Positions 1,318 through 27,462 of a stretch of 39,272 nt of DNA are shown here, in pieces. Numbering within the stretch: position 1 is the stretch's first letter; each line of letters opens with the position of its first letter. A model generated the notes under the pieces. The model was not told the DNA's origin. It ran no database searches and saw nothing but the letters and a program-made list of their open reading frames with translations. A program made the translations under genes and the position numbers. Source of the stretch: Burkholderiaceae bacterium (GTDB taxonomy: Bacteria; Pseudomonadota; Gammaproteobacteria; Burkholderiales; Burkholderiaceae_B); the NCBI GenBank assembly GCA_020851995.1, contig JADZBO010000084.1, positions 1 through 39,272 on the forward strand. The letters run 5' to 3'.

Positions 1318-1329
1318 TGGCTGCCCCTG

Positions 1330-3533: not shown

Positions 3534-3665
3534 GACGTCTCCCTGACATTGATCGCACCGCGTACGGTACAACGCATTTATGACAAGCAACGGTTTAGAC
3601 CGTGTTGCATACTTGTAACATTTATAAGGTTCAGTGGGTATACGGTCACAAAAGGGAGCAATCCG
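3534..3665. promoter_or_regulatory. divergent ugpB / glpK control region
   Basis: This 132-bp interval must hold the promoters for both ugpB (minus) and glpK (plus). It is richer in A+T than its flanks and contains short inverted repeats (CGGTttagACCG near 3589-3602, ACCGcgtaCGGT near 3557-3568) and hexamers such as TTGTAA and TATAAG. None is a convincing -35/-10 pair with normal spacing. I see no E. coli-type GlpR site. Joint control of the two operons is inferred from the layout only. Confidence 0.5.
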
Positions 3666-5198: not shown

Positions 5199-5204
5199 AC
5201 TTTT

Positions 5205-5240
5205 GCGCGCTGATGATGTGCCCGCTGCACATTGGCGCGC
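5205..5240 (+). repeat. inverted repeat between glpK and glpD
   Basis: ATGTGC (5216-5221) and GCACAT (5227-5232) form a 6-bp stem with a 5-nt loop. It is flanked by two self-complementary GCGCGC runs (5205-5210 and 5235-5240) that could extend the pairing. There is no T-run, so this is not a standard terminator; it might be an mRNA processing or attenuation element within the glpKD transcript, or chance. Confidence 0.3.
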
Positions 5241-5282
5241 TGCAGTTCCCCACCTCCCGGCCAACACAATGGAACACGTAGC

Positions 5283-6990: not shown

Positions 6991-7731
6991 CTAACCGGCC
7001 ATGTGCAGACCGCCATTCACGTGAATCACTTCACCAGTCACAAAGCTCGCTGCCGCGCTGCAGAGGAAGGCAATCACCGAAGCCACCTCTTCCGGCTTGC
7101 CCAGACGTCTGAGCGGCGTCTGGGCAATGGAATCGGCTCCGCGCGCCTTGATCAGGTCAGTCGCCATGGGGGTCTCGATCACGCCGGGCGACACCGCGTT
7201 GACACGCACATCCGGGCCAAGTTCGCGCGCAAGAGACCGCGTGAGACTCAGCAAAGCGCCCTTGGACGCGCTGTAATGGGCGTTGTAGAAAGCACCCCGG
7301 TGCGCCGCCATTGAACTCAGAAAAACGATCGAGCCTTGCGGGCGCAGATGCGCGACGACCCGCCGCACCAGAAAGAAGACACCGTCCAGGTTCAGCGCCA
7401 GCGTCTCGCGCCATTGCGCATCCGTCATTTCTCTTACCGGCTGTGCGCGGTAAATGCCGGCGGACGGCACAAGAAAATCAATGCCCCCGAAGGTATCCAG
7501 GGCCCGCTGAACAAGGTGCTCGCAATCGGCGGGCGAGGCGGCGTCCATGCCACAGGCAATGACGCGACCGGATGGGGCGTCAAGCGCGGCCACGAATTCC
7601 GTCAGGGCCTTCTCGCTCAAGTCCGCCAACACCAGATTGGCGCCCTGTGCGAGAAACAGCCGGGCCACTTCGCGACCAATGCCGCCATTGGCCCCGGTCA
7701 AGACCAACGTGCGACCAGAAAAATCGAACAT
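6991..7731 (-). CDS. SDR-family NAD(P)-dependent oxidoreductase (operon gene 6)
   Basis: Classical short-chain dehydrogenase/reductase, 246 aa. The Rossmann motif TGANGGIGR is near residue 13, the active-site Tyr-Lys pair is in YSASKGALLSLTRSLARELG, and the C-terminus GEVIHVNGGLHMAG is typical of FabG-like enzymes. It is the last gene of the minus-strand operon starting at 14479, 22 nt behind the E2 gene. FabG proper is unlikely because of the catabolic context. A secondary alcohol or diol dehydrogenase acting on a pathway intermediate is more plausible. The substrate cannot be read from the sequence. Confidence 0.85.
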   Translation of the reverse strand: MFDFSGRTLVLTGANGGIGREVARLFLAQGANLVLADLSEKALTEFVAALDAPSGRVIACGMDAASPADCEHLVQRALDTFGGIDFLVPSAGIYRAQPVREMTDAQWRETLALNLDGVFFLVRRVVAHLRPQGSIVFLSSMAAHRGAFYNAHYSASKGALLSLTRSLARELGPDVRVNAVSPGVIETPMATDLIKARGADSIAQTPLRRLGKPEEVASVIAFLCSAAASFVTGEVIHVNGGLHMAG

Positions 7732-7753: not shown

Positions 7754-9058
7754 TCAGATAAGCAGGGAGACTGGCGTCTCGATCAATCGCCGGAAGGCTG
7801 CCAGCCAGCGTGCCGCCAGGGCGCCGTCGACAACGCGGTGATCGACCGAAAGCACGCAGCGCATGATCTGACCCACCGCAAGCTGCCCGTTGACGTCGAC
7901 GACAGGCTGAGCACGCACGGCACCGACGGCAAGGATGCCAGCCTGTGGCGGATTAATGATGGCGGCGAACTCATCCACCCCGTACATACCCAGGTTACTC
8001 ACACAAAAGCTGCCACCGATAAATTCCTCCGGTCGCAGTTGACCGTCACGCGCGCGTTGCGCGAGGCGGCGCGCCTCGGAATGGATCTCAAGCAGACTTC
8101 GGCCAGCCGCATCACGGATGATGGGCGTGATCAGCCCACCGGGGGTCGACACTGCGAGCGCAAGATCCACGCGTTCGAACTGGAGGACGGCATCATCAGA
8201 CCAGGCAACGTTTACGGCGGGTTCTTCACGCAATGCAAGGGCTGTTGCGCGCAGAACGAGGTCGTTGACGGAGACCGGCTCGCTGCGTCCCTCGTTGATC
8301 TGCGTGCGCAACTCGATCAATCGATCGGCGCGGCAGTCCGCTGTAAGGTAAAAGTGAGGCACGGATGACTTGCTCTCGACCAGTCGGCGAGCGATCGTGC
8401 GGCGCATGCCCGTGTGCGGGATTTCGGTCCACGGGGACGCAGCACGCGCAAAACTTCCTTCAGCAATCGGTCGCGCGCGGGCGGTGAGGTCGGCAGGGTT
8501 TGCCTCAGGGGCGCGAGCCACCGTGCTCGTCAGTTCTTCGCGGCGATCCGCAAGAAGGGCGGCGGCAAGCATCACGTCGTACTTCACGACGCGCCCGTTG
8601 GGTCCGCTGCCTCGCACTTGTGTCAGATCCAACCCGTGCCGCCTGGCCAACAAGCGCGCAACCGGACTTGAAAAGATACGTTTTCCCGGACCCTGCGGGG
8701 TTTCCAGTGTGGTGTGGACGTCACCGGCCGGCTCGCCGGATGAATTCGCGGCACCGGATCGAGCGTCTGCGCGCCCCGCGCCATCATCCACGAAACTACG
8801 CACCGCGTCGGCAGATTCTCCGGGAACCAGCAGCACCGCAATGGGCGCACCGACCGCGTAGTCGGTGCCCGCCTGGGCGAGGATCTTGCCCAGAATGCCG
8901 TCTTCCTGCGCATTGACTTCAATCACGGCCTTGTCGGTTTCGATTTCAGCGATGCAATCACCGGCGGAAAACGGCTCGCCTTCAGCCTTGGTCCACTGCA
9001 CGAGCGTTGCCTGCGTGGCATTGGCGGCCACCTCGGGCATGCGCAATATGGTTGCCAT
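7754..9058 (-). CDS. dihydrolipoamide acyltransferase (E2) of an acetoin/2-oxoacid dehydrogenase complex
   Basis: E2 core protein, 434 aa, which accepts an acyl group from E1 on a lipoyl lysine and passes it to CoA. Domains in order: one lipoyl domain (residues 1-80, lipoylation lysine about K43 in EIETDKAVIEV), a linker, an E3/E1-binding domain (about 127-165, KRIFSSPVARLLARRHGLDL) and the catalytic domain ending with SVDHRVVDGALAARWL (active-site His about 407, Asp about 411). It lies 9 nt behind the E1 gene. No lipoamide dehydrogenase (E3) is encoded in the operon, so a housekeeping E3 may be shared. The acyl specificity is unknown; the AcoC-like single-lipoyl layout fits an acetoin-type complex. 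Confidence 0.9.
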   Translation of the reverse strand: MATILRMPEVAANATQATLVQWTKAEGEPFSAGDCIAEIETDKAVIEVNAQEDGILGKILAQAGTDYAVGAPIAVLLVPGESADAVRSFVDDGAGRADARSGAANSSGEPAGDVHTTLETPQGPGKRIFSSPVARLLARRHGLDLTQVRGSGPNGRVVKYDVMLAAALLADRREELTSTVARAPEANPADLTARARPIAEGSFARAASPWTEIPHTGMRRTIARRLVESKSSVPHFYLTADCRADRLIELRTQINEGRSEPVSVNDLVLRATALALREEPAVNVAWSDDAVLQFERVDLALAVSTPGGLITPIIRDAAGRSLLEIHSEARRLAQRARDGQLRPEEFIGGSFCVSNLGMYGVDEFAAIINPPQAGILAVGAVRAQPVVDVNGQLAVGQIMRCVLSVDHRVVDGALAARWLAAFRRLIETPVSLLI

Positions 9059-9067
9059 TATTGTCCC

Positions 9068-11257
9068 TTAGTGTTGAGCGCTCTCGCGCATGGTGCGCCG
9101 AAGGCCGTCGATGACTTCCTCGGTACGCGCACAGGCAGCGCGCTCAAGCACCTTGGAAATGCTGGGCGAAGCCTCGCCTCCGGTGACGCGCTGCACCGGC
9201 TGATCCAGCCAGTCGAAAAAGCGCCGCTGGATTTCATCCGACAACCATCCGCCATAGGAAGTGCCAAGCGCCCCCTGTTCCACGATCAGTACCTTGTTGG
9301 TCTTCTGGATACTGCGTTCAATCGTATCCCAGTCGATGCTGGCACGATCCAGCCAGCGCAGATCAATCACTTCTGCGTCGATTCCGCTCTGGTCGACCGC
9401 CTCGAGCGCATGCGCCACCATCGACAAATACGTGATGACAGTGACATCCGCCCCAGCGCGGCGCACTGCAGCCTTGCCGGGTGCGATGGTGAAATCCAGA
9501 TCGCCGGCCGGCACCTCGCCCGAGCTCGCATACAGATCGACGTGCTCGATGACGAGCACCGGATCCTGGCAACGCAACGCGGCATTCATCAGCCCGATAT
9601 AGTCCGACGGACAAGAGGGGGCGACGATGCGCCATCCCGGGCTGGTTGCGAAAATCCCGGCCGGATCCATCAGATGCTGCGAACCGTACCCCGAACCCAT
9701 CGCGACCTTGGTTCTCAGTACCAGAGGCACCGGGTGGTCGCCGCCGAACATGTGACGTGCCTTGCCAATCTGGTTGAACACCTGGTCACCCGCAACCCAC
9801 ATGAAGTCCGGGTACATGAACTCGACCACCGGCCGGTAGCGACCATCCATGGCGAGCCCGCCGCCCAGGCCGGCGAAGGCACATTCGCTGATCGGCGTGC
9901 CGAGCACCCGATCAGGAAAGGCCGCCTTCAATCCGCGGGTGGCACCGTTCGTGCCACCCTTGAGCCGGTGTACGTCCTCGCCCATCACCACGATCGAAGG
10001 TTCCTGCTCCATGCGGCGGTGCATCACGTCCGCGACCACATCGATGAACTTGCGCGTCACGCGCTCGCCCGTTGGCGCAGAGTCCTGGGTCGATGCGATG
10101 CCGCTGAATTCCGAGAGGTCGCCACGGATGCCCACATCGCGAAAATCCGGCCGGGGCCACAATTCGGGGCGAATGCGACGCATGCCAGCCTTGCCGTCCG
10201 GATCGGGCTCGATCAGGGCTTCGACAGCGCGCGCCATGCAGGCCTGGACTTGCGCGCGCAACGCCTTGACTTGCGATGCCGTGATGCGCTTGCTGTCCTG
10301 CATCCTGCGCGCGAGCAATTCGAGCGGATCGCGTTTGCGCCAGGCCGCTTCCTCCTGCTTGGTCCGGTAGCCAAAGGCGCTGCCCGGGAACGGACCGTTC
10401 TGGTGGAAGTAGCGGTAGACCCGCGCCTCAATAATCGTCGGTCCCTTGCCGGCCCGCATATGCGCGAGTGCCTGCGTCATGGCCAGATGAACCGCCAGGG
10501 GGTCCATGCCATCGACCGACCAGCTCGGAATATTGAACGCCTGGCCACGCGCCGCGAGCCGGGGTTCGCCCGTTGCCTCGTCGACCGTGGTCGACACCGC
10601 GTAGCCGTTGTTCTCAACGAAGAAGCATAAAGGCAGTTTCCAGGCGCTTGCCAGATTCATGGTCTCCAGCACGGAGCCGATATTGATCGCGCCATCGCCG
10701 AAATACGTCACGGCGACCGCGTCGGATCCAGCGTGCGCGTTGGCCCATGCGGATCCGGCGGCCAGCGGCACGCCACCACCGACAATCGCGTTGGTTCCCA
10801 GAGCACCCGCGGGCAGGTACTGAAGATGCATCGAACCGCCACGCCCCTTGCAATAGCCCTGTGACAACCCGAGGATTTCCGCCAGCGTGCGCTGCAGCAT
10901 CGTCGCAACTTCCGGTGCGATCGGCGCCCGCGGGTCGATTCCGTCGGGCTGCAAATACCCGAGCATCTTGGCGACGAACTGGTGGTGTCCGCGATGCGAG
11001 CCATTGACCTGATCGCGCGCGGTGAGACCGACGATTGACCCCGCCGCGCCGCCCTCCTGGCCAATACTCGAATGCGCGGGGCCGTGCACCAGGCCTTGCC
11101 CGGCAAGCTCAAGCACGGTTTCCTCAAAAGCGCGGATGATGTGCATGGACGCAAGCATCGTGTCGAGCAATCGGGAATCGGCGCGCTTCCAGTCCTGCTC
11201 GGTCGCCTGCAACTCGACCCAGGGTGCGGAAGAATGAAGTGAAGTGGACTTTGGCAT
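9068..11257 (-). CDS. fused alpha-beta E1 component of a thiamine-diphosphate 2-oxoacid/acetoin-type dehydrogenase
   Basis: A 729-aa protein joining both halves of an E1 heterodimer. Residues about 25-355 are the alpha part, with the thiamine diphosphate motif starting GDGAINIGSV (187) and ending at Asn-Asn 216-217. About 400-729 are the beta part (RKFIDVVADVMHRRM, VVMGEDVHRLKGGTNG, FNQIGKARHMFGG, transketolase C-terminal domain). A 45-residue charged linker joins them. E1 decarboxylates or cleaves its substrate with thiamine diphosphate and transfers the acyl group to the lipoyl arm of the E2 encoded 9 nt downstream. Separate alpha and beta genes are more usual; fused forms exist in the family. 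The substrate is open: a 2-oxoacid, or an alpha-hydroxyketone/diketone as in acetoin cleavage. Confidence 0.9.
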   Translation of the reverse strand: MPKSTSLHSSAPWVELQATEQDWKRADSRLLDTMLASMHIIRAFEETVLELAGQGLVHGPAHSSIGQEGGAAGSIVGLTARDQVNGSHRGHHQFVAKMLGYLQPDGIDPRAPIAPEVATMLQRTLAEILGLSQGYCKGRGGSMHLQYLPAGALGTNAIVGGGVPLAAGSAWANAHAGSDAVAVTYFGDGAINIGSVLETMNLASAWKLPLCFFVENNGYAVSTTVDEATGEPRLAARGQAFNIPSWSVDGMDPLAVHLAMTQALAHMRAGKGPTIIEARVYRYFHQNGPFPGSAFGYRTKQEEAAWRKRDPLELLARRMQDSKRITASQVKALRAQVQACMARAVEALIEPDPDGKAGMRRIRPELWPRPDFRDVGIRGDLSEFSGIASTQDSAPTGERVTRKFIDVVADVMHRRMEQEPSIVVMGEDVHRLKGGTNGATRGLKAAFPDRVLGTPISECAFAGLGGGLAMDGRYRPVVEFMYPDFMWVAGDQVFNQIGKARHMFGGDHPVPLVLRTKVAMGSGYGSQHLMDPAGIFATSPGWRIVAPSCPSDYIGLMNAALRCQDPVLVIEHVDLYASSGEVPAGDLDFTIAPGKAAVRRAGADVTVITYLSMVAHALEAVDQSGIDAEVIDLRWLDRASIDWDTIERSIQKTNKVLIVEQGALGTSYGGWLSDEIQRRFFDWLDQPVQRVTGGEASPSISKVLERAACARTEEVIDGLRRTMRESAQH

Positions 11258-11274: not shown

Positions 11275-12081
11275 TCAGAAGCCGTTAGCGGTGAATCCGC
11301 CGTCGGCAACCATGGCGTGACCGGTGATGTAGGCCGCCGCATCTGAGGCGAGAAACAGCGCAGCTTGCGCGACCTCCTGTGGCGTGCCCAGACGCCCAAG
11401 CGGCGTGCGCCGCTCGATCACGCCTTCGTCGAGCGCACCCCGGGCAATCAGATCGTCGACCAGCGCGGTACGGATATAACCGGGGCAAATCGCGTTGACG
11501 CGGATGTTGTGCTCGGCCCACTCGACCGCGAGCGTCTTGCACAGGGACACCACGGCGGCTTTCGACGCGCAGTACGCTGCGCGGCGCGCAGCCGATACCA
11601 GACCAAACATCGACGCCGTGCTCAGGATGACCCCGCCGCCCTGGTGCACCATGCGACGGGCAGCGGCCTGGGAGCAATAGAACACACCCGAAAGATCAAT
11701 ATCGATCGCGCGACGCCATTCTTCGGCAGTAACATCGAGTGACGGCTTGTTCATCGAAATTCCGGCGTTGTTCAGCAGGATATCGATCCGGCCGAACCGC
11801 TCAACCGTTTGCGCAACCGCGCGTTCAACCGCGACGTCATCGGTAATCGAGGCCACGTATGTGTCGACTTGCAGCTGCGGAAATTGTGCCCGCAGCGTGT
11901 CGCGCGCCTCGCCAAGCGCGATCGGATCGATATCGAGCAGCATCAGTCGCGCGCCCTGCCCTGCGAACGCCATCGACATCGCGTGGCCGATTCCGCGTCC
12001 TGCACCGGTATTGAGTACGACCTTGCCGTCGAGACCCGGCACCGCACCCGCCGGCATCTGGCCGCTGGCTGACTGCGTCAT
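11275..12081 (-). CDS. SDR-family oxidoreductase (operon gene 3)
   Basis: Short-chain dehydrogenase/reductase of 268 aa with cofactor motif TGAGRGIGHAMSMAF near residue 26, NNAG in IDILLNNAGISMN, and catalytic YCASKAAVVSLCKTLAVEWA. Its ATG overlaps the stop of the upstream GMC oxidoreductase by 4 nt (ATGA), so the two are probably translationally coupled. The first 15 residues are a polar extension before the Rossmann fold. The coupling suggests that it acts on the product of, or alongside, the GMC enzyme. NAD versus NADP preference is not decided by inspection. Confidence 0.87.
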   Translation of the reverse strand: MTQSASGQMPAGAVPGLDGKVVLNTGAGRGIGHAMSMAFAGQGARLMLLDIDPIALGEARDTLRAQFPQLQVDTYVASITDDVAVERAVAQTVERFGRIDILLNNAGISMNKPSLDVTAEEWRRAIDIDLSGVFYCSQAAARRMVHQGGGVILSTASMFGLVSAARRAAYCASKAAVVSLCKTLAVEWAEHNIRVNAICPGYIRTALVDDLIARGALDEGVIERRTPLGRLGTPQEVAQAALFLASDAAAYITGHAMVADGGFTANGF

Positions 12082-13688
12082 GCGCCTGCCCCTTTCGCAT
12101 CCTCAAGAATGAGGTCTGCACCGCGCTCGGCGACCATCATGACGGCCGCCTGCGTGTTGCCCGACACCATCGCCGGCATCACCGAAGCGTCCACGATGCG
12201 CAGTCCCTCAAGCCCGCGAAAGCGCAGACGCGGATCGACCACCGCACCGGCGTCGGATCCCATGCGGCACGTACCGATCGGATGGTAGATGGTCTGACCG
12301 TTTTCACGTGCAAAATCGAGCCACTGATCGTCGGACTGAACTGCATTGCCCGGACTCATTTCATGATCGATGTAATGGGCCAGCGCGGGGCGGCCAAAAA
12401 TCCGCCGTGCCACTTTCATGCCATCGATAATAGTCTGGCGGTCTTCCTCGGTATCGAGAAAGTTCGGCCGGATTGCGGGTCCTTGCATCGGATCTCTTGA
12501 CTGCAGGTGGATGCTGCCCTGCGATGTGGGACGCAGGCCTGCGACCCCCATGGTCATGCCGGGTGCATTGTCCAGCTTGCGCACGGCGGCATTCGCATAG
12601 CTCGCGTGCATAAAAAAATACTGCACATCGGGCGTGGCCAGCGCGGGTCTTGTGCGCACGAATCCACTCACAAGTCCCGTACCCAGCGTCAGGATGCCCG
12701 TGCGACGCGTGAAGTACTGCAGGGCAGCGAGCATCACGCGCCATCCCTGCGCCATTTCATTCAGTGTTTGCGTGTTGCGCACGCGCCAGTTCATGCGGGT
12801 CGCAAAGTGGTCGATATAGTTTTCTCCGACACGCGGCGCCGCATGGATCACATCGATCCCCAACTTCTTGAGCAAAACCGGGTCGCCGATTCCGGAAAGC
12901 TCCAGAAGTTGCGGTGTCTGGATTGCGCCCGCAGCGAGTACGACCTCCCGGACTGCGTCCACGGTATGCACAACACCATCCCGTCGGTAAGTCACCCCGC
13001 AGACGCGCCCCTGTCGCACGACCACGCTGAGCACATGTGCACCCGTCAGGATGGTCAGATTGGGGCGCGATCGCGCGGGTTCCAGATACCCTTGCACCAC
13101 GCTCCAGCGACGGCCATCTTTTTGCAGCGCCTGGTAATAACCAAAGCCCTCCTGCGTGCTCCCGTTATAGTCCTCGTTCAGAGGCTGCCCATCCTCCGCT
13201 GCGGCCTGAAGCACCGCATGCGCAATCGGAAACCGCTCCGCGACCTGCAGGATATGCATCGGGCCGGATCTGCCGCGCGCCTCGCCACCGGGCGCATAGC
13301 ACTCGAGCTTGCGGAAGTATGGCGCCACGTCGGCCGCCGACCATCCGGTCGCGCCCAGGCTTGCCCAGTGGTCGTAATCCCCGGGCTGACCCTGCACATA
13401 AATCATTCCGTTGATCAGGCTGGAACCGCCCAGCCCTTTGCCGCGCGGAATCGCGATCACACGGTCCCTGGTGGCCTTCTCGGGTTGCGTTTCAAACCGC
13501 CAGTTATAGACCGGATCATTCAGCAGCTTGGTAAAACCAGCGGGGATCCGGATCCACATGCTTTTGGGTTCACCGCCGGCTTCGAGCATCAGCACCCGGT
13601 GCCGACCGTTTGCCGTGAGACGATTGGCCAGCACGCAGGCGGCCGTACCGCCACCCACGATCACGTAGTCGTAGGAAGCGGTGGTCAT
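12078..13688 (-). CDS. GMC-family FAD-dependent alcohol oxidoreductase (choline-dehydrogenase-like)
   Basis: Glucose-methanol-choline oxidoreductase, 536 aa from the ATG at 13688. That start has GGGGG 4-8 nt upstream and overlaps the previous stop by 4 nt; a longer open frame upstream is only readthrough of the aroE-like gene's other frame. Motifs: FAD-binding DYVIVGGGTAACVLANRL at the N-terminus, GMC signature 1 region GKGLGGSSLINGMIYVQGQP, signature 2 region GAIQTPQLLELSGIG, and the C-terminal active-site segments YHPIGTCRMGS and SGNTQAAVMMVAERGADLI. Such enzymes oxidise primary or secondary alcohols and donate electrons to quinone or another acceptor. There is no signal peptide, so it acts in the cytoplasm or at the membrane face. 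Confidence 0.92.
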   Translation of the reverse strand: MTTASYDYVIVGGGTAACVLANRLTANGRHRVLMLEAGGEPKSMWIRIPAGFTKLLNDPVYNWRFETQPEKATRDRVIAIPRGKGLGGSSLINGMIYVQGQPGDYDHWASLGATGWSAADVAPYFRKLECYAPGGEARGRSGPMHILQVAERFPIAHAVLQAAAEDGQPLNEDYNGSTQEGFGYYQALQKDGRRWSVVQGYLEPARSRPNLTILTGAHVLSVVVRQGRVCGVTYRRDGVVHTVDAVREVVLAAGAIQTPQLLELSGIGDPVLLKKLGIDVIHAAPRVGENYIDHFATRMNWRVRNTQTLNEMAQGWRVMLAALQYFTRRTGILTLGTGLVSGFVRTRPALATPDVQYFFMHASYANAAVRKLDNAPGMTMGVAGLRPTSQGSIHLQSRDPMQGPAIRPNFLDTEEDRQTIIDGMKVARRIFGRPALAHYIDHEMSPGNAVQSDDQWLDFARENGQTIYHPIGTCRMGSDAGAVVDPRLRFRGLEGLRIVDASVMPAMVSGNTQAAVMMVAERGADLILEDAKGAGA

Positions 13689-14479
13689 AAAGCCCCCATG
13701 AACCTGGCCATCAGTTCGACCTGCGCGGCCAGCATCGGCAATCCCAGCTGAATTCGGCACCCTTTATCACGCGCGGCGACCAGCAGCGGCGTCATTTCCG
13801 GCCGCATGATGATTTCGGCAACCGTCTGACCGGGTTGCAGGCGATCGACATCCAGCGGATACGGATCACCTTCGGCCATGCCCAAGGAGGTCGCATTGAC
13901 GACGAGATCATGCCCGGTCGGGTCCGGCGAACCCACCTGCATGCTGATATCCGGGTAGGCCTGGCGCAAACGGACCAGCATTTCCTCCGCCTTGTCGCGG
14001 GTGCGGTTATGTACCGTCAGCGCAGACACGCCTGCTTCGGCCAGAGAAAATGCAATGGCGTTGGCGGCACCGCCCGCGCCAGCGAGATACGCCCGCTGGC
14101 CAGACGGCTCAATCCCGCTGGTACGCAAGCCAGCCACAAAGCCACGGCCATCCAGAATATCGCCAACCAACCTGCCGCCTGGCTCGACCCGGATGACATT
14201 CACTGCGCCAACCATGGCCGCGGCCGGCGTCAGCTCATCGCACAACCGGGCGATCGCCGTCTTGTGGGGCACTGTGACCACGACGCCACCCAGGTTCAGC
14301 ACGCCACGCATTGCCGTGACCCAATCGGCAAGGCGCGTAGCTGGCACCTGCATCGGCACGAGCACCGCGTCGATACCGCGCGCCTCAAACAAGCGGTTCA
14401 GATTCTGTGGCGTCTTGACCTGCAGGACGGGGTCCGCGACGATGGCATACAGCTTGGTCTTACCTGTTATTTCACTCAT
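13685..14479 (-). CDS. shikimate/quinate dehydrogenase-like protein with altered substrate pocket
   Basis: First gene of the catabolic operon, 264 aa, of AroE/YdiB/QuiA fold. The N-terminal catalytic domain keeps the lysine of VTVPHK (K73), the Asn of AVNVI (N94) and the Asp of ILDG (D110). The NAD(P) domain has GAGGAANAIAFSLAEAG and NRT. The usual HSxSP shikimate-binding serines are replaced (QVKTP, residues 20-24), and NTDG has become ILDG. It is therefore probably not the biosynthetic AroE. Its position in a catabolic operon suggests a dehydrogenase for a related cyclic or polyol substrate. The stop overlaps the GMC start by 4 nt (ATGA). Family confidence is high; function is inferred. Confidence 0.82.
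   Translation of the reverse strand: MSEITGKTKLYAIVADPVLQVKTPQNLNRLFEARGIDAVLVPMQVPATRLADWVTAMRGVLNLGGVVVTVPHKTAIARLCDELTPAAAMVGAVNVIRVEPGGRLVGDILDGRGFVAGLRTSGIEPSGQRAYLAGAGGAANAIAFSLAEAGVSALTVHNRTRDKAEEMLVRLRQAYPDISMQVGSPDPTGHDLVVNATSLGMAEGDPYPLDVDRLQPGQTVAEIIMRPEMTPLLVAARDKGCRIQLGLPMLAAQVELMARFMGAL
14455..14465. promoter_or_regulatory. possible extra operator inside the aroE-like gene start
   Basis: TGGTCTTACCT matches 10 of 11 bases of the palindromic core TGGTCTTACCA found at 14542 and 20981. It lies within codons 5-9 of the aroE-like gene (encoding Thr-Gly-Lys-Thr-Lys), 87 bp from the main site. It could be an auxiliary operator allowing looping, or a coincidence of codon choice. Confidence 0.3.
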
Positions 14480-14541: not shown

Positions 14542-14573
14542 TGGTCTTACCAGTATATACAGTGGACTGACCA
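14542..14573 (-). promoter_or_regulatory. operator-promoter element A of the catabolic operon
   Basis: On the minus strand this 32-bp element starts TGGTCAGTCCA, then has a TATACT -10-like hexamer (14557-14552) and ends with the palindrome TGGTAAGACCA (14552-14542), TGGT-N3-ACCA. The two half-elements are 21 bp apart, about two helical turns. The same arrangement, 27 of 32 bases identical, occurs at 20981-21012. TGGT-N3-ACCA is the type of operator used by FadR-subfamily GntR repressors such as PdhR and LldR. The element lies in the 202-bp gap between the aroE-like operon and the FCD regulator, so autoregulation is possible. No good -35 is seen. Confidence 0.7.
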
Positions 14574-14681
14574 TTATGATCGGGACTTACCCTAAATTCA
14601 ACCAGCAGACGCATTAATTGCTTATGATGTCGCATACTCGATCAGTGTCCACTCTGACCTGGCTTCCGTAACCTGACCCCT

Positions 14682-15392
14682 ATGACCGACAGCACTGCCG
14701 AATCCATCCACCTGCCCGATGAAATCGCGCAGGAACTTGGTCGCCTGATCCAGAGCAAGCAACTGCTTGCCGGCGACCGGCTGCCCAGCGAACGGGATCT
14801 CTGCGAGCAATTTTCCGTCAGTCGGCCAGTGATTCGTGAAGCCCTCTCGCGTCTGAAATCCGAAGGACTCGTCGCAATCCGTCGCGGCGTGGGCGTATTC
14901 ATCACCGAGCGTGATCCGCGCGAAGGCTTCAAGATCGCCGAAATCGACATTGACCAGCGACTCTCGGTTTCCCATGTGATGGAACTCATCGCGACGGTCG
15001 AAGTCGCGGCAACGCGTCTGGCTGCTGCACGCAGATCGGCCGACGATCTCAAGCAAATCCGCCGCTGCCTGCTCGGGATGGAGTACGCCATCGCCAGCGA
15101 CCGCCTCGGGGACGAGGAGGACTATGAATTCCACCAGTCCATTGTCGTCGCCACGCACAACCCTTACTTCCTCACCCTGAGCCAGCACCTGGAACACACT
15201 GCCCGCAAGATGATCCGTCATCTGCGCAGCAACACAAAAACCCGTCACACCAATCTGATCGAGGCAGTTCAGGCGGAACACCAGGCAATTTTCAACGCCA
15301 TCGCCGCAAGCGATCCCGCTGCCGCAGAGCGTGCCGCGCGCGATCACCTCGAGAACGCGGAACGGCGCCTCGTCAAATACATGAAATCCTGA
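14682..15392 (+). CDS. GntR-family transcriptional regulator with FCD domain (FadR subfamily)
   Basis: 236-aa regulator. Residues about 10-75 form the winged helix-turn-helix (GDRLPSERDLCEQFSVSRPV, then IREALSRLKSEGLVAIRRGV). Residues about 90-230 form an all-helical FCD effector domain with conserved Asp/His positions in YEFHQSIVVATHNPYF, AEHQAIFNAIAAS and RDHLENAERRLV, which usually hold a metal next to a carboxylate ligand. It is divergent from the six-gene catabolic operon and convergent with the SDR gene ending the importer operon. The neighbouring TGGTnnnACCA-type element and its copy before the importer suggest that it controls both, most likely as a repressor relieved by a carboxylic-acid inducer. 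The ligand is unknown. Confidence 0.92.
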   Translation: MTDSTAESIHLPDEIAQELGRLIQSKQLLAGDRLPSERDLCEQFSVSRPVIREALSRLKSEGLVAIRRGVGVFITERDPREGFKIAEIDIDQRLSVSHVMELIATVEVAATRLAAARRSADDLKQIRRCLLGMEYAIASDRLGDEEDYEFHQSIVVATHNPYFLTLSQHLEHTARKMIRHLRSNTKTRHTNLIEAVQAEHQAIFNAIAASDPAAAERAARDHLENAERRLVKYMKS

Positions 15393-15406
15393 CGGTCTCA
15401 CGTCAG
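15389..15406. repeat. short hairpin over the convergent stops
   Basis: CTGACG (15389-15394), a 6-nt loop and CGTCAG (15401-15406) form a perfect 6-bp stem covering the regulator stop codon and the SDR stop codon, which are only 5 bp apart. It could act as a weak bidirectional terminator. No T-run is present on either side. Confidence 0.3.
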
Positions 15407-16171
15407 CAGCCATCCCCCGGCGACATCCACCACCTGCCCCGTCACGAAGCGGCTTTCCGGTGCGGTCAGAAAACAAGCCATCTCGGCAACTTCGGAAGGC
15501 TCGCCCAACCGGCGCAGCGCTGTCTCGGCGATCACCGCCTGATTCGTTTCGTTCGATGCCGTGCGCATGAGCGGTGTGTTGATGCGGCCCGGCGCAATCG
15601 CGTTGACGGTGATGCCGTACGGGCCAAGCTCTCCCGCCAGGTCACGGGTCAGACCAATCAGTGCGGCCTTGGTGGTGCCATAGTGGGCCGCCGTGAATCC
15701 GACAAAGGCCTTGCCTGCCACGGAAGACATATTGACGATACTGCCAAACCGCCGCTGCACCATACCGGGGGTGACCAGTCGCGCGAAGTTGAACGCGCCG
15801 TGCAAATTCACGCCGACCACCTTTTGCCATTCGGCGGGCTGCATTTCCCAGAAATTGGCTGGTTTGCCATTGGTCTTCGGGGAGATGCCGGCATTATTGA
15901 CCAGTGTGTCGACCGGGGCGTCCAGGTGCTGCTCAATCTGACCGAGCGCCACCTCGCACTGGGCGTAGTCCGACACATCGGCGCAGGCCCAGGCAACCGT
16001 GGCGCCTTCGCGCTCAAGCCCGGCGGCAAAAGCGGCAAGCGCCTCGGCATTGACATCGATCAGCGCAACCGAAGCACCCTCGAGCGCGTATTGCCTTGCG
16101 ATCGCCGCACCAATCCCGCTCGCGGCACCCGTCACCAGTACGACCCTGCCCTTGTGTCGGTTTGAATGCAT
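15398..16171 (-). CDS. SDR-family oxidoreductase (last gene of the importer operon)
   Basis: 257-aa short-chain dehydrogenase with VLVTGAASGIGAAIARQYAL near the N-terminus, VNNAGISPKTNGKP, the catalytic Tyr-Lys pair in AAHYGTTKAALIGLTRDLAG and the C-terminal TGQVVDVAGGWLLT. It lies 4 nt behind the LivF-type ATPase gene and is therefore part of the importer operon, not of the AroE/GMC operon. It is the third SDR in the region. A role in the first oxidation of the imported compound would fit its coupling to transport, but that is inference. Confidence 0.87.
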   Translation of the reverse strand: MHSNRHKGRVVLVTGAASGIGAAIARQYALEGASVALIDVNAEALAAFAAGLEREGATVAWACADVSDYAQCEVALGQIEQHLDAPVDTLVNNAGISPKTNGKPANFWEMQPAEWQKVVGVNLHGAFNFARLVTPGMVQRRFGSIVNMSSVAGKAFVGFTAAHYGTTKAALIGLTRDLAGELGPYGITVNAIAPGRINTPLMRTASNETNQAVIAETALRRLGEPSEVAEMACFLTAPESRFVTGQVVDVAGGWLLT

Positions 16172-16175
16172 CGCG

Positions 16176-16889
16176 TCAGATTCCCAAATATGCTTTCTTG
16201 ATGTGCGGATTGTCCAACAACTCCTGGCCGGTGCCAGTCATGGTGATTTCGCCGTTCTCCAGAACATAGCCACGGTCAGCGATGCGCAGCGTGTGCACGA
16301 TGTTCTGCTCGACGATCAGCACCGTCGTCCCCATGTCGACGATCTGGTCAATCACCGCAAACACCTGCGACACGAGCAACGGCGACAAACCCAGCGAGGG
16401 CTCGTCGAACATCAGCAGATCCGGATTCGACATGAGTCCGCGGGCGATCGCGACCATTTGCTGCTCACCGCCTGAGAGACTGCCTGCGAACTGGTCGAGG
16501 CGCTCGCGAACCCGCGGAAAGATTTCCAACACCTCGTCCATGCGCTGATGCCAGGTCGCGCGCGCGGTTTTCTTGTAGGCACCCATCAACAGGTTGTCAC
16601 GCACCGAGATGTACGGAAAGAGCTGGCGACCTTCCGGGACCATGGTGACGCCGGCAGTCACAATCTGATCCGAACGCAGGCCGTCGATGCGGTCACCCTC
16701 GAACTCAATCGTGCCCCCTGTGGGCCGGACGATGCCGCAAATTGTGCGCAACGTGGTGGTCTTGCCTGCGCCGTTTGCACCGACAATCGTCACAACCTCG
16801 CCCCTGTGAACTTCGAGCGACACGTTGCGAATGATTTCAGTGCCCCCATAGCCGGCAGACACTCCGTTAAGCTTAAGTATGGTGTGCAT
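16176..16889 (-). CDS. LivF-type branched-chain ABC transporter ATPase
   Basis: Second cytoplasmic ATPase of the HAAT-type importer, 237 aa from the ATG at 16889. I prefer this start because AAGGAT lies just upstream and the ABC domain begins at once (MHTILKLNGVSAGYGGTEII); a start 30 nt earlier is possible. It has Walker A GANGAGKTTTL, signature LSGGEQQMVAIARGL, Walker B LLMFDEPSLGLSP and the LivF-like ending NPHIKKAYLGI. It overlaps the preceding LivM-LivG gene by 17 nt, indicating coupling. The family transports branched-chain amino acids, but many relatives carry amides or aromatic acids, so leucine specificity should not be assumed. Confidence 0.93.
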   Translation of the reverse strand: MHTILKLNGVSAGYGGTEIIRNVSLEVHRGEVVTIVGANGAGKTTTLRTICGIVRPTGGTIEFEGDRIDGLRSDQIVTAGVTMVPEGRQLFPYISVRDNLLMGAYKKTARATWHQRMDEVLEIFPRVRERLDQFAGSLSGGEQQMVAIARGLMSNPDLLMFDEPSLGLSPLLVSQVFAVIDQIVDMGTTVLIVEQNIVHTLRIADRGYVLENGEITMTGTGQELLDNPHIKKAYLGI

Positions 16890-18696
16890 AATCCTTGCCC
16901 AGATAAGCCTCGATGACACGCGGGTCGCTCACGACTTCCACCGGTGTTCCCTCGCACAGCACGCTGCCCGAATTGATCACCACCACGCGGTCGGACAACT
17001 GCATGACCGCCTGCATGATGTGTTCGATCATCAGAACCGATACTCCGGAATCGCGAACCCGGCGAATGATTCCAATGGCGCGCGCAACGTCGGCAGGGTT
17101 TAACCCCGCCAGCACTTCATCCAGAAGCAGCACGCGCGGCTGCGTTGCCAGCGCTCGCGCCATCTCCAGGCGCTTCATGCCGCCCACGGTCAAATTTCGG
17201 GCGCGCATGTCGAGCATCGGTGAAAGGTCAGTCAGTTCGGCCACGCGGCGCGCCTGACGCGCCGCCTCGGCGGGCGCACTCGTATTCAGGAAAGCGCCCA
17301 GCATGATGTTCTCCAGCACCGTCAGATCAGCAAATGGCTGGGCAATCTGGAAGGTGCGGCCAATGCCCGCGCGTGCGAACTCCTCAGGTGTGCCGGGATG
17401 TACCCACTGCCCGTTCAGCAGCCGAACCTTGATGTCGCCGCTGTTTGGGCGCAGGAATCCCGAAAGCTGATTGAATACCGTCGTCTTGCCCGCGCCATTT
17501 GGGCCGATGACTCCGAGAATCTCGCCCTGGCAGAGTTCGATCGACACGTTATTGGTGGCGTGCAGACCACCGAAGTACAGGTTCAGTTGCGTCGCCTGCA
17601 GGATCACTTCCGGCTCGGAACCCTTGGGAGCACTTATCTTCGCGCTCGCCGCGGCCGGTGCCGGTGCCGGTGCCGATGCCGATGCCTGACCAGTGTCCGC
17701 ACTGTGCTCTGACGCGGAGCGACTGCCAGGCAGGCGATCGACCCAGCGCATGAACGGCGCGCCGAACCGCCCCACCAGGCCCTTGGGGATTGTCAGCACG
17801 ACGACCACCAGCACGATGCCATAGACGAGGCCGTGAAAGCCGTTGCCAAAATCGCTGAGCCAGCCGCGCGCGAGCTCGGCGATCGGCAAGACCAGTACCG
17901 TGCCCACCAGTGGCCCGAACACAGTGCCCAGGCCACCGATCAGCGCAAACATCGCGATCTGAATCGACAACTCGAGGGAAAAGGCCGAACTCGGATCAAT
18001 AAAAGTAAGGTACATGGCCTGAAAGCTGCCGACCAGACTGGTCAGAAAGGCAGACACCATCACCGCTGCAAGCTTTGCACGCACCGCATTGACACCGACC
18101 GCGCGCGCAGCATCCTCGCGTTCCCGCACCGCGACCAGATAGTACCCGAGGCGGGAATGCACGATGCGCCAGGAAACCGCCAGCGACAGCAGCAGGAAGC
18201 CGAAGGCGATGACGAGATAGACCCATTTCTCTCGGAACATCATCCACTTCAGACCAATGTTCAGCGGTGGCGCAAGGCCGCCCGCGCCGCCGGTCAGACC
18301 GGTCTGGTGGATCGCCAGCAAACGCACAACCTCAAGCACCGCGATCGTTGCCAGTGCGAAAAAGGGACCGCGCAGCCGAAAGCAGGGGTAGCTGATCAGG
18401 ACTGAAACGATGGTTGAAATCACCGCCCCCACCAACATGCCGATCCAGGGCGAAATCTGAAACTTCAGCATCAGCAGAACCGCTGCGTAGGAGCCGATCC
18501 CGTAGAACACCGCGTGCCCGAGGGACAACTGACCGGCAAAACCTCCGACGATATTCCACGCAGTCGCGAGCGCCGCAAAGCTGCAGAGCAGCACGAAGAT
18601 GTGATAGAGGAAGGGCGAGCCTGCAACGAGCGGGATCACCAGCAATAAGGAGAGGGCAATAATCGCGACATACGCCCGGGGATTCAGAATGTTCAC
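16873..18696 (-). CDS. LivM-LivG fusion: ABC permease fused to ATPase
   Basis: 607-aa protein combining a LivM-type permease (residues 1-322, about eight to ten hydrophobic segments, with the loop REREDAARAVGVNAVRAKLA) and a LivG-type ATPase (about 363-607). The ATPase has Walker A GPNGAGKTT at 398-406 and Walker B VLLLDEVLAGLNP. Its signature motif reads LTVGGMKRLEMARAL rather than the common LSGGQ form, as in some LivG subgroups. The two parts are joined by an Ala/Pro/Ser-rich linker (about 323-362) partly encoded by a hexanucleotide repeat. It is located 10 nt behind livH. Such fusions occur in this transporter class. Confidence 0.92.
   Translation of the reverse strand: MNILNPRAYVAIIALSLLLVIPLVAGSPFLYHIFVLLCSFAALATAWNIVGGFAGQLSLGHAVFYGIGSYAAVLLMLKFQISPWIGMLVGAVISTIVSVLISYPCFRLRGPFFALATIAVLEVVRLLAIHQTGLTGGAGGLAPPLNIGLKWMMFREKWVYLVIAFGFLLLSLAVSWRIVHSRLGYYLVAVREREDAARAVGVNAVRAKLAAVMVSAFLTSLVGSFQAMYLTFIDPSSAFSLELSIQIAMFALIGGLGTVFGPLVGTVLVLPIAELARGWLSDFGNGFHGLVYGIVLVVVVLTIPKGLVGRFGAPFMRWVDRLPGSRSASEHSADTGQASASAPAPAPAAASAKISAPKGSEPEVILQATQLNLYFGGLHATNNVSIELCQGEILGVIGPNGAGKTTVFNQLSGFLRPNSGDIKVRLLNGQWVHPGTPEEFARAGIGRTFQIAQPFADLTVLENIMLGAFLNTSAPAEAARQARRVAELTDLSPMLDMRARNLTVGGMKRLEMARALATQPRVLLLDEVLAGLNPADVARAIGIIRRVRDSGVSVLMIEHIMQAVMQLSDRVVVINSGSVLCEGTPVEVVSDPRVIEAYLGKDYAHHT
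17657..17686. repeat. hexanucleotide tandem repeat in the LivM-LivG linker
   Basis: Five head-to-tail six-base units, three GGTGCC followed by two GATGCC on the plus strand, encode the alternating Ala-Pro/Ala-Ser linker (residues about 337-347) of the permease-ATPase fusion. Gain or loss of units keeps the reading frame, so the linker length may vary between strains. Confidence 0.8.
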
Positions 18697-18706
18697 AGGC
18701 GCACCT

Positions 18707-19582
18707 TTACTCGGAGCCTCGACCCAGGCCGAGCAAGCCGGTCGGTCGAAGAATCAGGATCCCGATGAAAATCAGGAAATAAACGACTTCCTTGAGATCG
18801 GGCGCAATGTAATAGCCCGACAGACTGTCAATCAGTCCGATGATGAGCGAGCCGAGGAACGCACCGCTCAGGCTGCCGAGACCGCCAAGTACGACAATCA
18901 CGAACGTGGTCAGCACAAAAAAGGTCCCGACCGTCGGGAAGACCGGAAACTGCGGAAGCAACAAGCCGGAGGCGAGGCCAAGACAGGCGCAACCCAGTCC
19001 GAATGCGAAGACGTAGATCTTTTCGACATTCACACCCATGAGTTGTGCGGCGTAACGGTGCTGCGCGGTTGCGCGCACTGCACGCCCCAGAAACGTGCGC
19101 TGCAAGAACCAGTGCAATCCGCCCATCAGAGCGAGCGACACGCAAAAGGTGATGAGTTGCCCGCTGACCACCGAGATCGGTCCCACCCGCAGCGTCGCGG
19201 ACGTGAAATCATTGAGCTTGACCGGATAGACATCGGCGCCAAACGTCAGCAACGCAAGGTTCAGTAATGCCGTCGACACGCCGACGGTGGCAAAGATCTG
19301 AATATGCGGATCGGCGTTGAGCAAGGGCTGGATGACAAAACGTTGCATCAGCGCACCGCCGGCGAACAGGATGATGACCGCAACAAAGGCCGAGACGTAG
19401 GGATGCAGGCCGAGTTTCGCGTACATCAGGTAGACCGCATACATCCCGATCATCAGGAATTCACCGTGCGCGAAGTTAACCACGCGCACAATGCCGAAAA
19501 TCAGCGTCAAACCGATGCTGATGATGGCCAGCGTGCCGCCGAGCAGCAAACCGTTGACCACGAGCTGAAGAAATATGTCCAT
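18707..19582 (-). CDS. LivH-type branched-chain ABC transporter permease
   Basis: Inner-membrane permease, 291 aa from the ATG at 19582 (MDIFLQLVVNGLLLGGTLAI). I prefer this to a start seven codons earlier because it matches the family N-terminus. It carries the LivH hallmark LTLIFGIVRVVNFAHGEFLM, multiple transmembrane segments, the loop RTFLGRAVRATAQHRYAAQL and the late helix GLGSLSGAFLGSLIIGL. It pairs with the LivM part of the next gene to form the channel. It is separated from the binding-protein gene by 63 bp that include a strong hairpin, which probably lowers expression of the membrane components relative to the binding protein. Confidence 0.94.
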   Translation of the reverse strand: MDIFLQLVVNGLLLGGTLAIISIGLTLIFGIVRVVNFAHGEFLMIGMYAVYLMYAKLGLHPYVSAFVAVIILFAGGALMQRFVIQPLLNADPHIQIFATVGVSTALLNLALLTFGADVYPVKLNDFTSATLRVGPISVVSGQLITFCVSLALMGGLHWFLQRTFLGRAVRATAQHRYAAQLMGVNVEKIYVFAFGLGCACLGLASGLLLPQFPVFPTVGTFFVLTTFVIVVLGGLGSLSGAFLGSLIIGLIDSLSGYYIAPDLKEVVYFLIFIGILILRPTGLLGLGRGSE

Positions 19583-19609
19583 TGCAATCCGCGTTCCGGG
19601 CAAAAGAAT

Positions 19610-19629
19610 GGGGGGCGTGGACGCCCCCC
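19610..19629 (-). terminator. intra-operon hairpin between binding-protein and permease genes
   Basis: GGGGGGCGT (19610-19618) and ACGCCCCCC (19621-19629) form a very stable stem. On the minus strand it is followed by ATTCTTTTG, a weak U-tract. It sits 16 nt after the binding-protein stop. It is probably a partial terminator or a 3'-stabilising mRNA structure, as is common after highly expressed binding-protein genes. Confidence 0.6.
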
Positions 19630-19645
19630 TTGTGACATCGCGTGA

Positions 19646-20869
19646 TTACTTGCCGACTTTGCCGACGACAGGCGCAACCACAGCGGCCTCTTTCGGGTAA
19701 ACCGTGGTCAGCTTGCCGTCAAGCCACTGCATGACGAACGGAAGCGCGCGCTGGTTTTGCCCTGTCTCATCGAACTTGGCACCCCAGCCGCTGGGGGTCG
19801 AGCCGACTGGCACATCCACAGCGAGGACTGCAGCCCGGATCTTGTCCTTGTCCATGGAGCCAGCACGAGCAATCGCGTCAAAGAATATGTTGGCACCCGT
19901 GAAGTTCGCCAGGCTATGACCTGAACGCGGCTCAATGCCGTACTTCTTCTTGTAGGCCTCGACAAAAGCCTTGATTCCCGGTGCGCCCGCTTCGTTGGTC
20001 AGATACTGCGTGAAGTCGATGTCGAAGACGCCATGCATGTTGTCAGGACCTGCGGCGTTGACCGTGTCCTGGGTCGAGTAACCACCCCCCGCACCGATCA
20101 CCGCCTTCGGCGCGAACCCGCCTTCCTTCATCTGGCGGAAGAACAGCACCGTGTCGTTCTGGTAGGACGTCTGCAACACCACATCGACCTTGGCACCCTT
20201 GAGGCGCAGGATCAGCGAGGACAGGTCCACCGCCTTGGCTGAATAGGGCAGGGTTTCGACGATCGTCAGACCCGCCTTCTTGGCGGCTTCAGTCTGATAT
20301 TTCGCCACCGTCGTGCCGTAGAGCGCATCTTCGTGGATGATTGCAATCCGCAGATCCTGCGGCTTGACATTCAATCCCGGGGCGATCACCTCATTGATGA
20401 CATCGACCGAACGCAACGCAAAATTCTTTGCCGTCGGATTGGTGCGGAAAACATACTTGTAGCCACGCTCGGTAATCGGATCGGAAATCGCACCAAGCTC
20501 GAAATACGGAACCCCGGCAAGTTCGCTGACCTGCGTGGCCGCAAACGAAATCGGCGAGGCGTAGCTGCCGAAGATCGCCTGCACATTTTCGATGGAAGTC
20601 AGTTTGCGCGCTGTGCCGACTGCCTGGGTGGCGTCCACGGCGTCACCCTTGACGATCTGGATCTTCTTGCCAAGCAATCCGCCGTCGGCATTGCGCTTTT
20701 CAACGGCAAGCTCAAATCCGCGATAGCTTTCATCGCCCAACAGCGCGAGGCCTCCGCTCAGCGGATACAAGGCTCCGAACTTGAGATCTTGGGCATGGGC
20801 AGTGCCGATAGCGCTTGCCGCACCGACCAGGGCAAGCGCCAGCGCGCCCAGGGTTTTCTTGATTTTCAT
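19646..20869 (-). CDS. Liv-type ABC transporter substrate-binding protein
   Basis: 407-aa periplasmic binding protein of the leucine-binding-protein-like (Peripla_BP_6) family. The signal peptide is MKIKKTLGALALALVGAASA...HAQ, with the mature start near DLKFGALYPLSGGLALLGDE. Typical features are GFELAVEKRNADGGLLGKKI, the hinge segment AIFGSYASPISFAATQVSEL, and EDALYGTTVAKYQTEAAKKA in the second lobe. It is the first gene of the importer operon. Its promoter carries the 32-bp operator shared with the catabolic operon, so it is expected to deliver that pathway's substrate. The ligand cannot be deduced from sequence alone. Confidence 0.94.
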   Translation of the reverse strand: MKIKKTLGALALALVGAASAIGTAHAQDLKFGALYPLSGGLALLGDESYRGFELAVEKRNADGGLLGKKIQIVKGDAVDATQAVGTARKLTSIENVQAIFGSYASPISFAATQVSELAGVPYFELGAISDPITERGYKYVFRTNPTAKNFALRSVDVINEVIAPGLNVKPQDLRIAIIHEDALYGTTVAKYQTEAAKKAGLTIVETLPYSAKAVDLSSLILRLKGAKVDVVLQTSYQNDTVLFFRQMKEGGFAPKAVIGAGGGYSTQDTVNAAGPDNMHGVFDIDFTQYLTNEAGAPGIKAFVEAYKKKYGIEPRSGHSLANFTGANIFFDAIARAGSMDKDKIRAAVLAVDVPVGSTPSGWGAKFDETGQNQRALPFVMQWLDGKLTTVYPKEAAVVAPVVGKVGK

Positions 20870-20980
20870 CGCGTCTCCAGCGTGTCAATGGATGTAGTCA
20901 CCGAGTCATCCCCCTTTTACAATCAAACGAACCGCATCACCTGCAGGGCGATTGCCAGGCCGCTTGAGGGAATTTCTCAG

Positions 20981-21012
20981 TGGTCTTACCAGTATATCCA
21001 GAAGTCAGACCA
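20981..21012 (-). promoter_or_regulatory. operator-promoter element B of the importer operon
   Basis: On the minus strand it starts TGGTCTGACTT, contains a TATACT -10-like hexamer (20996-20991) and ends TGGTAAGACCA (20991-20981). It matches element A (14542-14573) at 27 of 32 positions and has the same 21-bp spacing of half-elements. It lies 112 bp before the binding-protein start and about 20 bp before the ATG of the divergent hydrolase gene, so a bound regulator could affect both directions. Confidence 0.7.
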
Positions 21013-21033
21013 AAGATTATAGGGGGATACCCG

Positions 21034-21936
21034 ATGCCGAATCACGCTGTCAGGCTGTTTACGTGGATGCTGGCCCTGAGTGTCGCGGCGATTGCGCCCT
21101 CGCCCGCGCGGGCCCAGGCCAGCCTGCACGACGGCAGCTTCGTCACCTCGGACGGCGTCAGGTTGCACTACCTGGAGGCTGGTTCGGGTGATCGTGTGAT
21201 CGTGTTCATACCCGGCTGGTTGATGCCAGCGGCGGTTTTCGAACGCCAGTTGTCCGTGTTGGGTGAAGAGTTCCGGATCCTCGTCCTCGATCCTCGCTCG
21301 CAGGGGCAATCGGAGCTGACATCAAAATCGCATGATCCGATACGACGCACGCAGGATATTCTGGAATTTCTCAAAGCGACCGGTACGCACGAATTCATTC
21401 TGGCCGGATGGTCTCTGGGCGTGATGGAAGTGCTCGATCTGATCGCAAGACATCCCCAGGCCGGGTTGCGTGGTCTCATCCTGATCGATAACTCGATCGG
21501 CGAAGGCCGTCCCCCTGCTCCGCGCAAATCCGATTTTGCTGCGATCATGAAGGACGATGCGCGCCGCGAGGCCTACATGCGCCAGTTCAGCAAGGAACTC
21601 ACCAAAATCCCACCGCCCGCCAACGTCAGTCAGGCTATTCTGGAATCCACGTTGCGTGCGCCGGGCAACGTCGCGATCGAGTTGCTGAATCAACCCTACC
21701 CGCGCGAATACTGGCGTCAGACGGTCGAGAAGCAGAGCGTGCCTGTGATGTATGCGGTGACGCCGCGACTACGCGACCAGGCGGACGCACTGCGCAAGAA
21801 ACGACCGGGCGATCGATCGATGGTCATGGTGTTCGCCAATGCTGGCCACGCGCTGTTTCTGGACGACCCGAAAGCGTTTAACGCCGCAACGGCAAAGTTC
21901 GCCCGCGCAGCGTTTGATCACCGCAGCCGTCATTGA
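21034..21936 (+). CDS. exported alpha/beta-fold hydrolase
   Basis: 300-aa hydrolase. The ATG at 21034 has AGGGGG 7 nt upstream and gives a clear signal peptide (MPNHAVRLFTWMLALSVAAI...ARAQA), so the enzyme is probably periplasmic. The alpha/beta-hydrolase core includes the oxyanion-side motif FIPGWLMPAAVFERQ, the nucleophile elbow GWSLGV (serine) and the late histidine NAGHALFLDD; the acid residue is not obvious. It is divergent from the importer operon and shares operator B, which suggests that it releases the transported compound, for instance from an ester. Its last 7 bases overlap the convergent downstream gene. The precise reaction is unknown. Confidence 0.85.
   Translation: MPNHAVRLFTWMLALSVAAIAPSPARAQASLHDGSFVTSDGVRLHYLEAGSGDRVIVFIPGWLMPAAVFERQLSVLGEEFRILVLDPRSQGQSELTSKSHDPIRRTQDILEFLKATGTHEFILAGWSLGVMEVLDLIARHPQAGLRGLILIDNSIGEGRPPAPRKSDFAAIMKDDARREAYMRQFSKELTKIPPPANVSQAILESTLRAPGNVAIELLNQPYPREYWRQTVEKQSVPVMYAVTPRLRDQADALRKKRPGDRSMVMVFANAGHALFLDDPKAFNAATAKFARAAFDHRSRH

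Positions 21937-24291: not shown

Positions 24292-27462
<3,171 letters not shown>

Follow-up and report, generated by a model that had tools for sequence, protein, structure and literature searches.

Regulators of the FadR type usually bind a TKGT-N3-ACMA palindrome (PMC4494728). In E. coli, the footprinted operator of PdhR has TGGTAAGACCA as its core (PMC10572922). We analysed a 39,272-nucleotide stretch of DNA (hereafter the window), contig JADZBO010000084.1 of the Burkholderiaceae bacterium assembly GCA_020851995.1, in which two 32-bp elements of this kind stand upstream of two predicted minus-strand operons. Site 1 (14542..14573, minus strand) precedes the operon of an AroE-like protein and site 2 (20981..21012, minus strand) that of a branched-chain-amino-acid-type importer. 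A GntR-family regulator with an FCD domain is encoded beside site 1. We consider it probable that the paired palindromes make each element a double operator on which two dimers of this regulator sit side by side. Bound in this way, the regulator would likely keep both operons repressed until a compound of the pathway frees it from the DNA.

Direct comparison confirmed that the two elements share 27 of their 32 positions, and that both carry TGGTAAGACCA and TATACT on the minus strand, as the sequence-only reading had stated. Each element is made of two 11-bp palindromes whose starts are 21 bp apart (14542-14552 and 14563-14573 at site 1; 20981-20991 and 21002-21012 at site 2). These are TGGTCTTACCA followed by TGGACTGACCA at site 1, and TGGTCTTACCA followed by AAGTCAGACCA at site 2, so that the second half of either element is an imperfect palindrome itself. 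TGGTCTTACCA has, in both sites, the TKGT and ACMA boxes 3 nt apart of FadR/FCD-type operators. Site 1 is located between the AroE-like gene (minus strand) and the regulator gene (plus strand), and site 2 between the solute-binding-protein gene of the importer (minus strand) and an alpha/beta hydrolase gene (plus strand). Both elements precede a minus-strand operon, as had been claimed, but site 2 also faces the hydrolase, whose start codon begins 22 bp past it. The presence of two palindromes per element suggests two dimers, and it is likely that two dimers bind each element rather than one. As 21 bp corresponds to two helical turns, these dimers would share one face of the DNA. The earlier proposal of a dimeric FadR-type GntR protein on two half-elements is thus kept as to the likely ligand, but the unit would be two palindromes at 20-22 bp occupied by two dimers.

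An all-versus-all comparison of the 32-mers in the window (up to 5 mismatches) revealed no inverted pair, and its other direct pairs all came from one local repeat (24424-24521). No direct pair was obtained from three shuffled windows. A 32-bp pattern built from these two sites matched the window twice, whereas 100 shuffles gave 0.00 matches on average. When the source genome (3.9 Mb in 290 contigs, 97.4% complete) was scanned with the 21-bp core, allowing up to 3 mismatches, only sites 1 and 2 were found. The repeat at 24424-24521 is short and tandem-like, with a 48-bp period.

We compared the element and the regulator across 32 genomes of the genus and 268 genomes of the family, scoring up to 10 element candidates per genome in the latter. 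In the genus, the pattern was observed in 5 of 32 genomes, and these five are exactly the ones with a regulator at least 79% identical. Each has two sites, and G026 gave one additional 3-mismatch match. In the family, 77 genomes have a match to the regulator at E <= 1e-55, and in 7 of these the identity is at least 66%. The element was found in 8 of the 268 genomes, including all 7 with such a regulator (two sites in six of them, one in G125). Only G095 matched among the remaining 261, by a lone and weak 2-mismatch match without the right end. After removal of duplicate records, 16 sites from 8 genomes were retained, and all 16 show the 21-bp spacing, that is, two palindromes at the nearly constant distance of a double operator. 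The element therefore tracks the regulator in related genomes. This co-occurrence and the co-variation described below argue for a shared operator with this regulator as its likely ligand, and we regard the regulon reading as well supported by the comparison.

In the L036 genome (also given as G292), three sites were observed in 3.9 Mb. The third, at L036 2223-2254, has the same orientation as the other sites and precedes a quinone-oxidoreductase-like gene (2307-3296), named by eye from its sequence. A homologue of this gene (55-58% identity) is found inside the cluster in all 8 Chelatococcus and Microvirga loci, and this membership supports the third site being functional.

The cluster with its FCD regulator was also found in Rhodobacterales, in Achromobacter-type Alcaligenaceae, and in Chelatococcus and Microvirga. 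In Rhodobacterales, where the regulator is 57-60% identical, a 31-bp TGGTCTTACCAGT...GACCA element (TGGTC...GACCA) with 20-bp spacing adjoins the regulator in 7/7 loci; the TGGTCTTACCAGT 13-mer has one copy in six of the seven genomes and two in the other. By eye, a lone unit, CTGTCAGACCAGT (CTGTCAGACCGGT in L045), was also seen near the start of the regulator itself in this group. In the loci whose regulators are 49-58% identical, the half-site is TTGTC in place of TGGTC. With a paired TTGTC model (TTGTCTGATAA, maximum score 22) and one shuffle per locus as control, 22 of these 26 loci, some of which are near-copies of each other, gave a best pair of at least 19/22 at a spacing of 20-22 bp (shuffles <=16). 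The spacing was 21 bp in 17 of the 22, 22 bp in four and 20 bp in one.

Two further arrangements were noted among the relatives. In L047-L054, a fully conserved block, AGATAACCAAGTTGCCTGACAAGT, lies between the binding-protein and quinone-oxidoreductase-like genes; it holds a single palindrome, and the regulator has Gln at position 28 of the helix-turn-helix (HTH). In G026, a second FCD homologue (59%), with Arg at HTH 28, adjoins another cluster of binding-protein and importer genes, where TTGTC and GACCA form a mixed pair of 33 bp (L068 864-896); this cluster is maybe a paralogous regulon.

HTH position 28 is equivalent to Arg-35 of FadR, the residue in contact with the TKGT base that varies, and Arg at this position prefers G (PMC4494728). 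With operator labels assigned by eye, we observed Arg in 15/15 rows labelled TGGTC and Lys in 22/22 labelled TTGTC, while the 8 Chelatococcus and Microvirga rows have Gln. The groups differ both in the operator base that HTH 28 contacts in FadR and in the residue at HTH 28, and this would support a direct reading of the element by the regulator. We tentatively suggest a wider possibility, in which this FCD family would conserve the geometry of its recognition unit, two dimers stacked at a distance of 20-22 bp. A Lys-to-Arg change at HTH 28 could have turned the half-site from TTGTC into TGGTC with the pairing kept, and a second factor could read an AGGG-N5-CCCT box alongside.

The promoter features are less uniform than the palindromes. 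TATACT is a candidate -10 hexamer of the importer operon at 20991..20996 (minus strand; in 7/9 copies of sites 2 and 3), with TATAAT just upstream, and one of two candidates for the AroE-like operon at 14552..14557 (minus strand; in 5/7 copies of site 1). It is present in 12/16 sites overall, and its AC is also part of the extended palindrome. An alternative -10 lies just upstream, TATAA-like at site 2 and CATAAT at site 1 in the window and L033. A consensus scan reported TATACT as a -10 at neither site. At site 1 it preferred TTGAAT-17-CATAAT ending at 14573, which the alignment shows in the window and L033 only. No -35 common to the sites was revealed by the alignment or the consensus scan. 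The claim that the half-elements cover -35 to about +1 was thus not established, given the rival -10, the lack of a shared -35 and a second conserved box in that place.

This box, AGGG-N5-CCCT-like, is GGGTAAGTCCCGATCA at 14577..14592 (minus strand), 19 bp upstream of site 1, and GGGTATCCCCCTATAA at 21017..21032 (minus strand), 20 bp upstream of site 2. It is also present 20 bp upstream of the third site in L036 and is degenerate at site 1 of L037. A 16-mer pattern built from site 2 had exact matches only at site 2, in 5/6 genomes. With up to 1 mismatch, 15 matches in the 6 genomes compared with 18 for the reversed control, which is chance level. Nine of ten 1-mismatch matches were inspected; eight had no adjoining double operator and one ran off its contig. 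The box may be the site of another factor. In many of the TTGTC-type loci (L081-L099), palindromes such as TAGGGATTAACCCTA, resembling this box by eye, are found just before an SDR start codon.

In the mechanism that we propose, the regulator from the gene beside site 1 would bind both elements, with two dimers side by side on one DNA face at each. The bound dimers would repress by lying over the core promoter or over its start, and an intermediate of the pathway would act as inducer, releasing the regulator from DNA. The same palindromes could in principle be used by one dimer, or by a tetramer looping out the middle, that bridges the ends of the element with the outer TGGTC and GACCA arms as its half-sites. 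In favour of this, conservation is highest at these outer ends, and the second palindrome has a weak inner half (AAGTC in site 2). However, all 16 sites have the first palindrome, TGGTNNNACCA, in full, and it alone equals a FadR-family site. Moreover, the TTGTC-type loci have two near-complete palindromes, and single ones are found in Rhodobacterales, at the start of the regulator itself, and in Chelatococcus and Microvirga; we find such bridging unlikely. Binding of the elements by a different GntR protein, for example a PdhR-like one, with the neighbouring FCD regulator acting elsewhere, would agree with TGGTAAGACCA being a generic FadR-family core and with the 9 matches to the regulator in the window genome. 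It appears quite improbable given that across the family the element goes with this orthologue, that the element occurs nowhere else in the genome, and that the operator and the HTH of this very regulator change together.

The sign of regulation could also be reversed, the regulator binding the elements as an activator while repression is left to the second box or to a site farther away. Promoters that depend on activators likewise have no conserved -35, and a conserved box does lie upstream. We hold this to be highly improbable, as the element covers the two candidate -10 hexamers or lies immediately downstream of them, which is a repressor's place, and PdhR exerts repression at an operator shortly after the start (PMC10572922). 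That the likeness of the two elements reflects a recent promoter copy without regulatory meaning is scarcely credible. Such a copy would account for the 27 shared positions, but the upstream end of site 1 reads TGGTMAGTCCA in 7/7 copies, whereas sites 2 and 3 have ACTTCT in 8/9. Each site class keeps its own signature across 8 genomes, and therefore the copies are old and separately maintained.

Several observations weigh against our reading of the elements as double operators of the FCD regulator. The regulator and the operons themselves co-occur, so co-occurrence by itself would not single out the regulator. In G125, site 1 is absent and the stretch between the regulator and the AroE-like gene is without the element. 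L080, L086 and L090 score 16 under the paired TTGTC model, which is shuffle level, and the best-scoring pair of L008 has a spacing of 33. A paired operator was looked for in the 8 Chelatococcus and Microvirga loci, and these carry one strongly conserved palindrome, not two. The co-variation depends on labels given by eye and needs one change per label on the tree, so that the Arg/Lys switch is one event. HTH position 58 separates the groups too (Arg or Ala versus Gln), and L090 misfits: its CTGTC-type site is that of its sister L086, but it has Arg where L086 has Lys. The start positions rest on candidates, and hence repression is read from position.

The regulator gene (14682..15392, plus strand) encodes a protein of 236 aa, the predicted binder of both sites, whose orthologue co-occurs with the element. 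Its Pfam matches to GntR (77.4 bits, cut-off 27) and FCD (79.2 bits, cut-off 24.3) place it in the FadR/FCD subfamily of the GntR family. On the minus strand downstream of site 1 are the genes for the AroE-like protein (13685..14479), with a shikimate dehydrogenase N-terminal domain, a GMC oxidoreductase (12078..13760), SDR B (11275..12081), a fused alpha-beta E1 of a pyruvate-dehydrogenase-like complex (9068..11257; domain and structure match), an E2 acyltransferase with lipoyl and E3-binding domains (7754..9058) and SDR A (6991..7731). Those downstream of site 2, also on the minus strand, encode the periplasmic solute-binding protein (19646..20869), a LivH-type permease (18707..19603), a LivM-LivG-type permease-ATPase fusion (16873..18696), a LivF-type ATPase (16176..16919) and SDR C (15398..16171). 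The GMC oxidoreductase, the three SDRs, E2 and the LivF-type ATPase were assigned by domain matches.

The predicted regulon would therefore comprise the importer, three SDRs, the AroE-like protein, the GMC oxidoreductase, the fused E1, E2 and the regulator, with the hydrolase in some species. The sequence-only reading had joined 13 genes into one candidate regulon; a regulon of two operons is supported by the comparison, but the 13 genes as such are linked by position only. The divergent hydrolase gene (21034..21936, plus strand) is a possible extra member. It adjoins site 2 in L033, L037 and L070 and was not detected next to site 2 in L034, L035 and L036, so its inclusion holds for only some of the relatives. 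From the encoded proteins we infer a pathway that would import a compound by the branched-chain-amino-acid-type system and then oxidise it stepwise, from a hydroxyl or keto compound to an acyl-CoA, probably ending at the pyruvate-dehydrogenase-like complex. Domain and structure matches of these proteins gave no name for the substrate.

A further ABC importer is encoded beside the regulon, at 460-6899, with two permeases and a binding protein in the 2211-4559 frame. The same region holds a divergent glycerol-3-phosphate-dehydrogenase-like gene (DAO, DAO_C), and the scan of the window with the 32-bp pattern found no copy of the element there.

If our reading holds, an uncharacterised block of 13 genes would become a single regulon open to test, with its regulator named and its sites exactly placed, and finding what releases the regulator from DNA would be the quickest route to the substrate. 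The family would also provide a natural series of operators that change in sequence but keep their paired geometry, useful for the study of specificity change among GntR regulators. Among the titles listed by our literature searches, none is on this regulon, and it is within those searches that we call it unreported; one paper found through an 11-mer search lists predicted Mycobacterium sites.

Among described systems, PdhR of E. coli is alike in being an FCD/GntR regulator whose 11-bp operator core, TGGTAAGACCA, is the strong palindrome found here (PMC10572922). Its targets include pyruvate-dehydrogenase-type E1 and E2, and it is the closest solved structure to the window regulator. However, only a single palindrome, at +11 to +27, is described for its operator (PMC10572922), the window gene set differs by the importer, SDRs, GMC oxidoreductase and AroE-like protein, and the regulator scored 101.4 bits in the NCBIfam PdhR equivalog test, below the cut-off of 330. 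NanR of E. coli is an FCD regulator of which several dimers bind cooperatively on adjacent repeats over a promoter (PMC8012715), and it gave the best NCBIfam score for the window regulator, 113.8 bits, below the cut-off of 260. Unlike the sites described here, those of NanR are GGTATA direct repeats, and the protein has a 32-residue N-terminal extension (PMC8012715). Atu1419 of Agrobacterium fabrum, an FCD regulator of a catabolic region, also places two dimers on two palindromes, but it belongs to the VanR group, its palindrome is ATGTATACAT, and its sites are 109-190 bp apart and bridged by a tetramer through looping (PMC7797058), against 21 bp here. A precedent in geometry is given by the FadR-subfamily divergons of Suvorova et al. 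(2015), where double sites with TKGT/ACMA boxes at a nearly constant distance were read as cooperative (PMC4494728). That study treats many families, and the sections of it drawn on here do not name this regulator or cluster; in the window, moreover, the pair also precedes an operon without a regulator gene. The operator type itself is thus a known one, that of FadR/PdhR-type operators, and the regulon of the window would be a further case of it.

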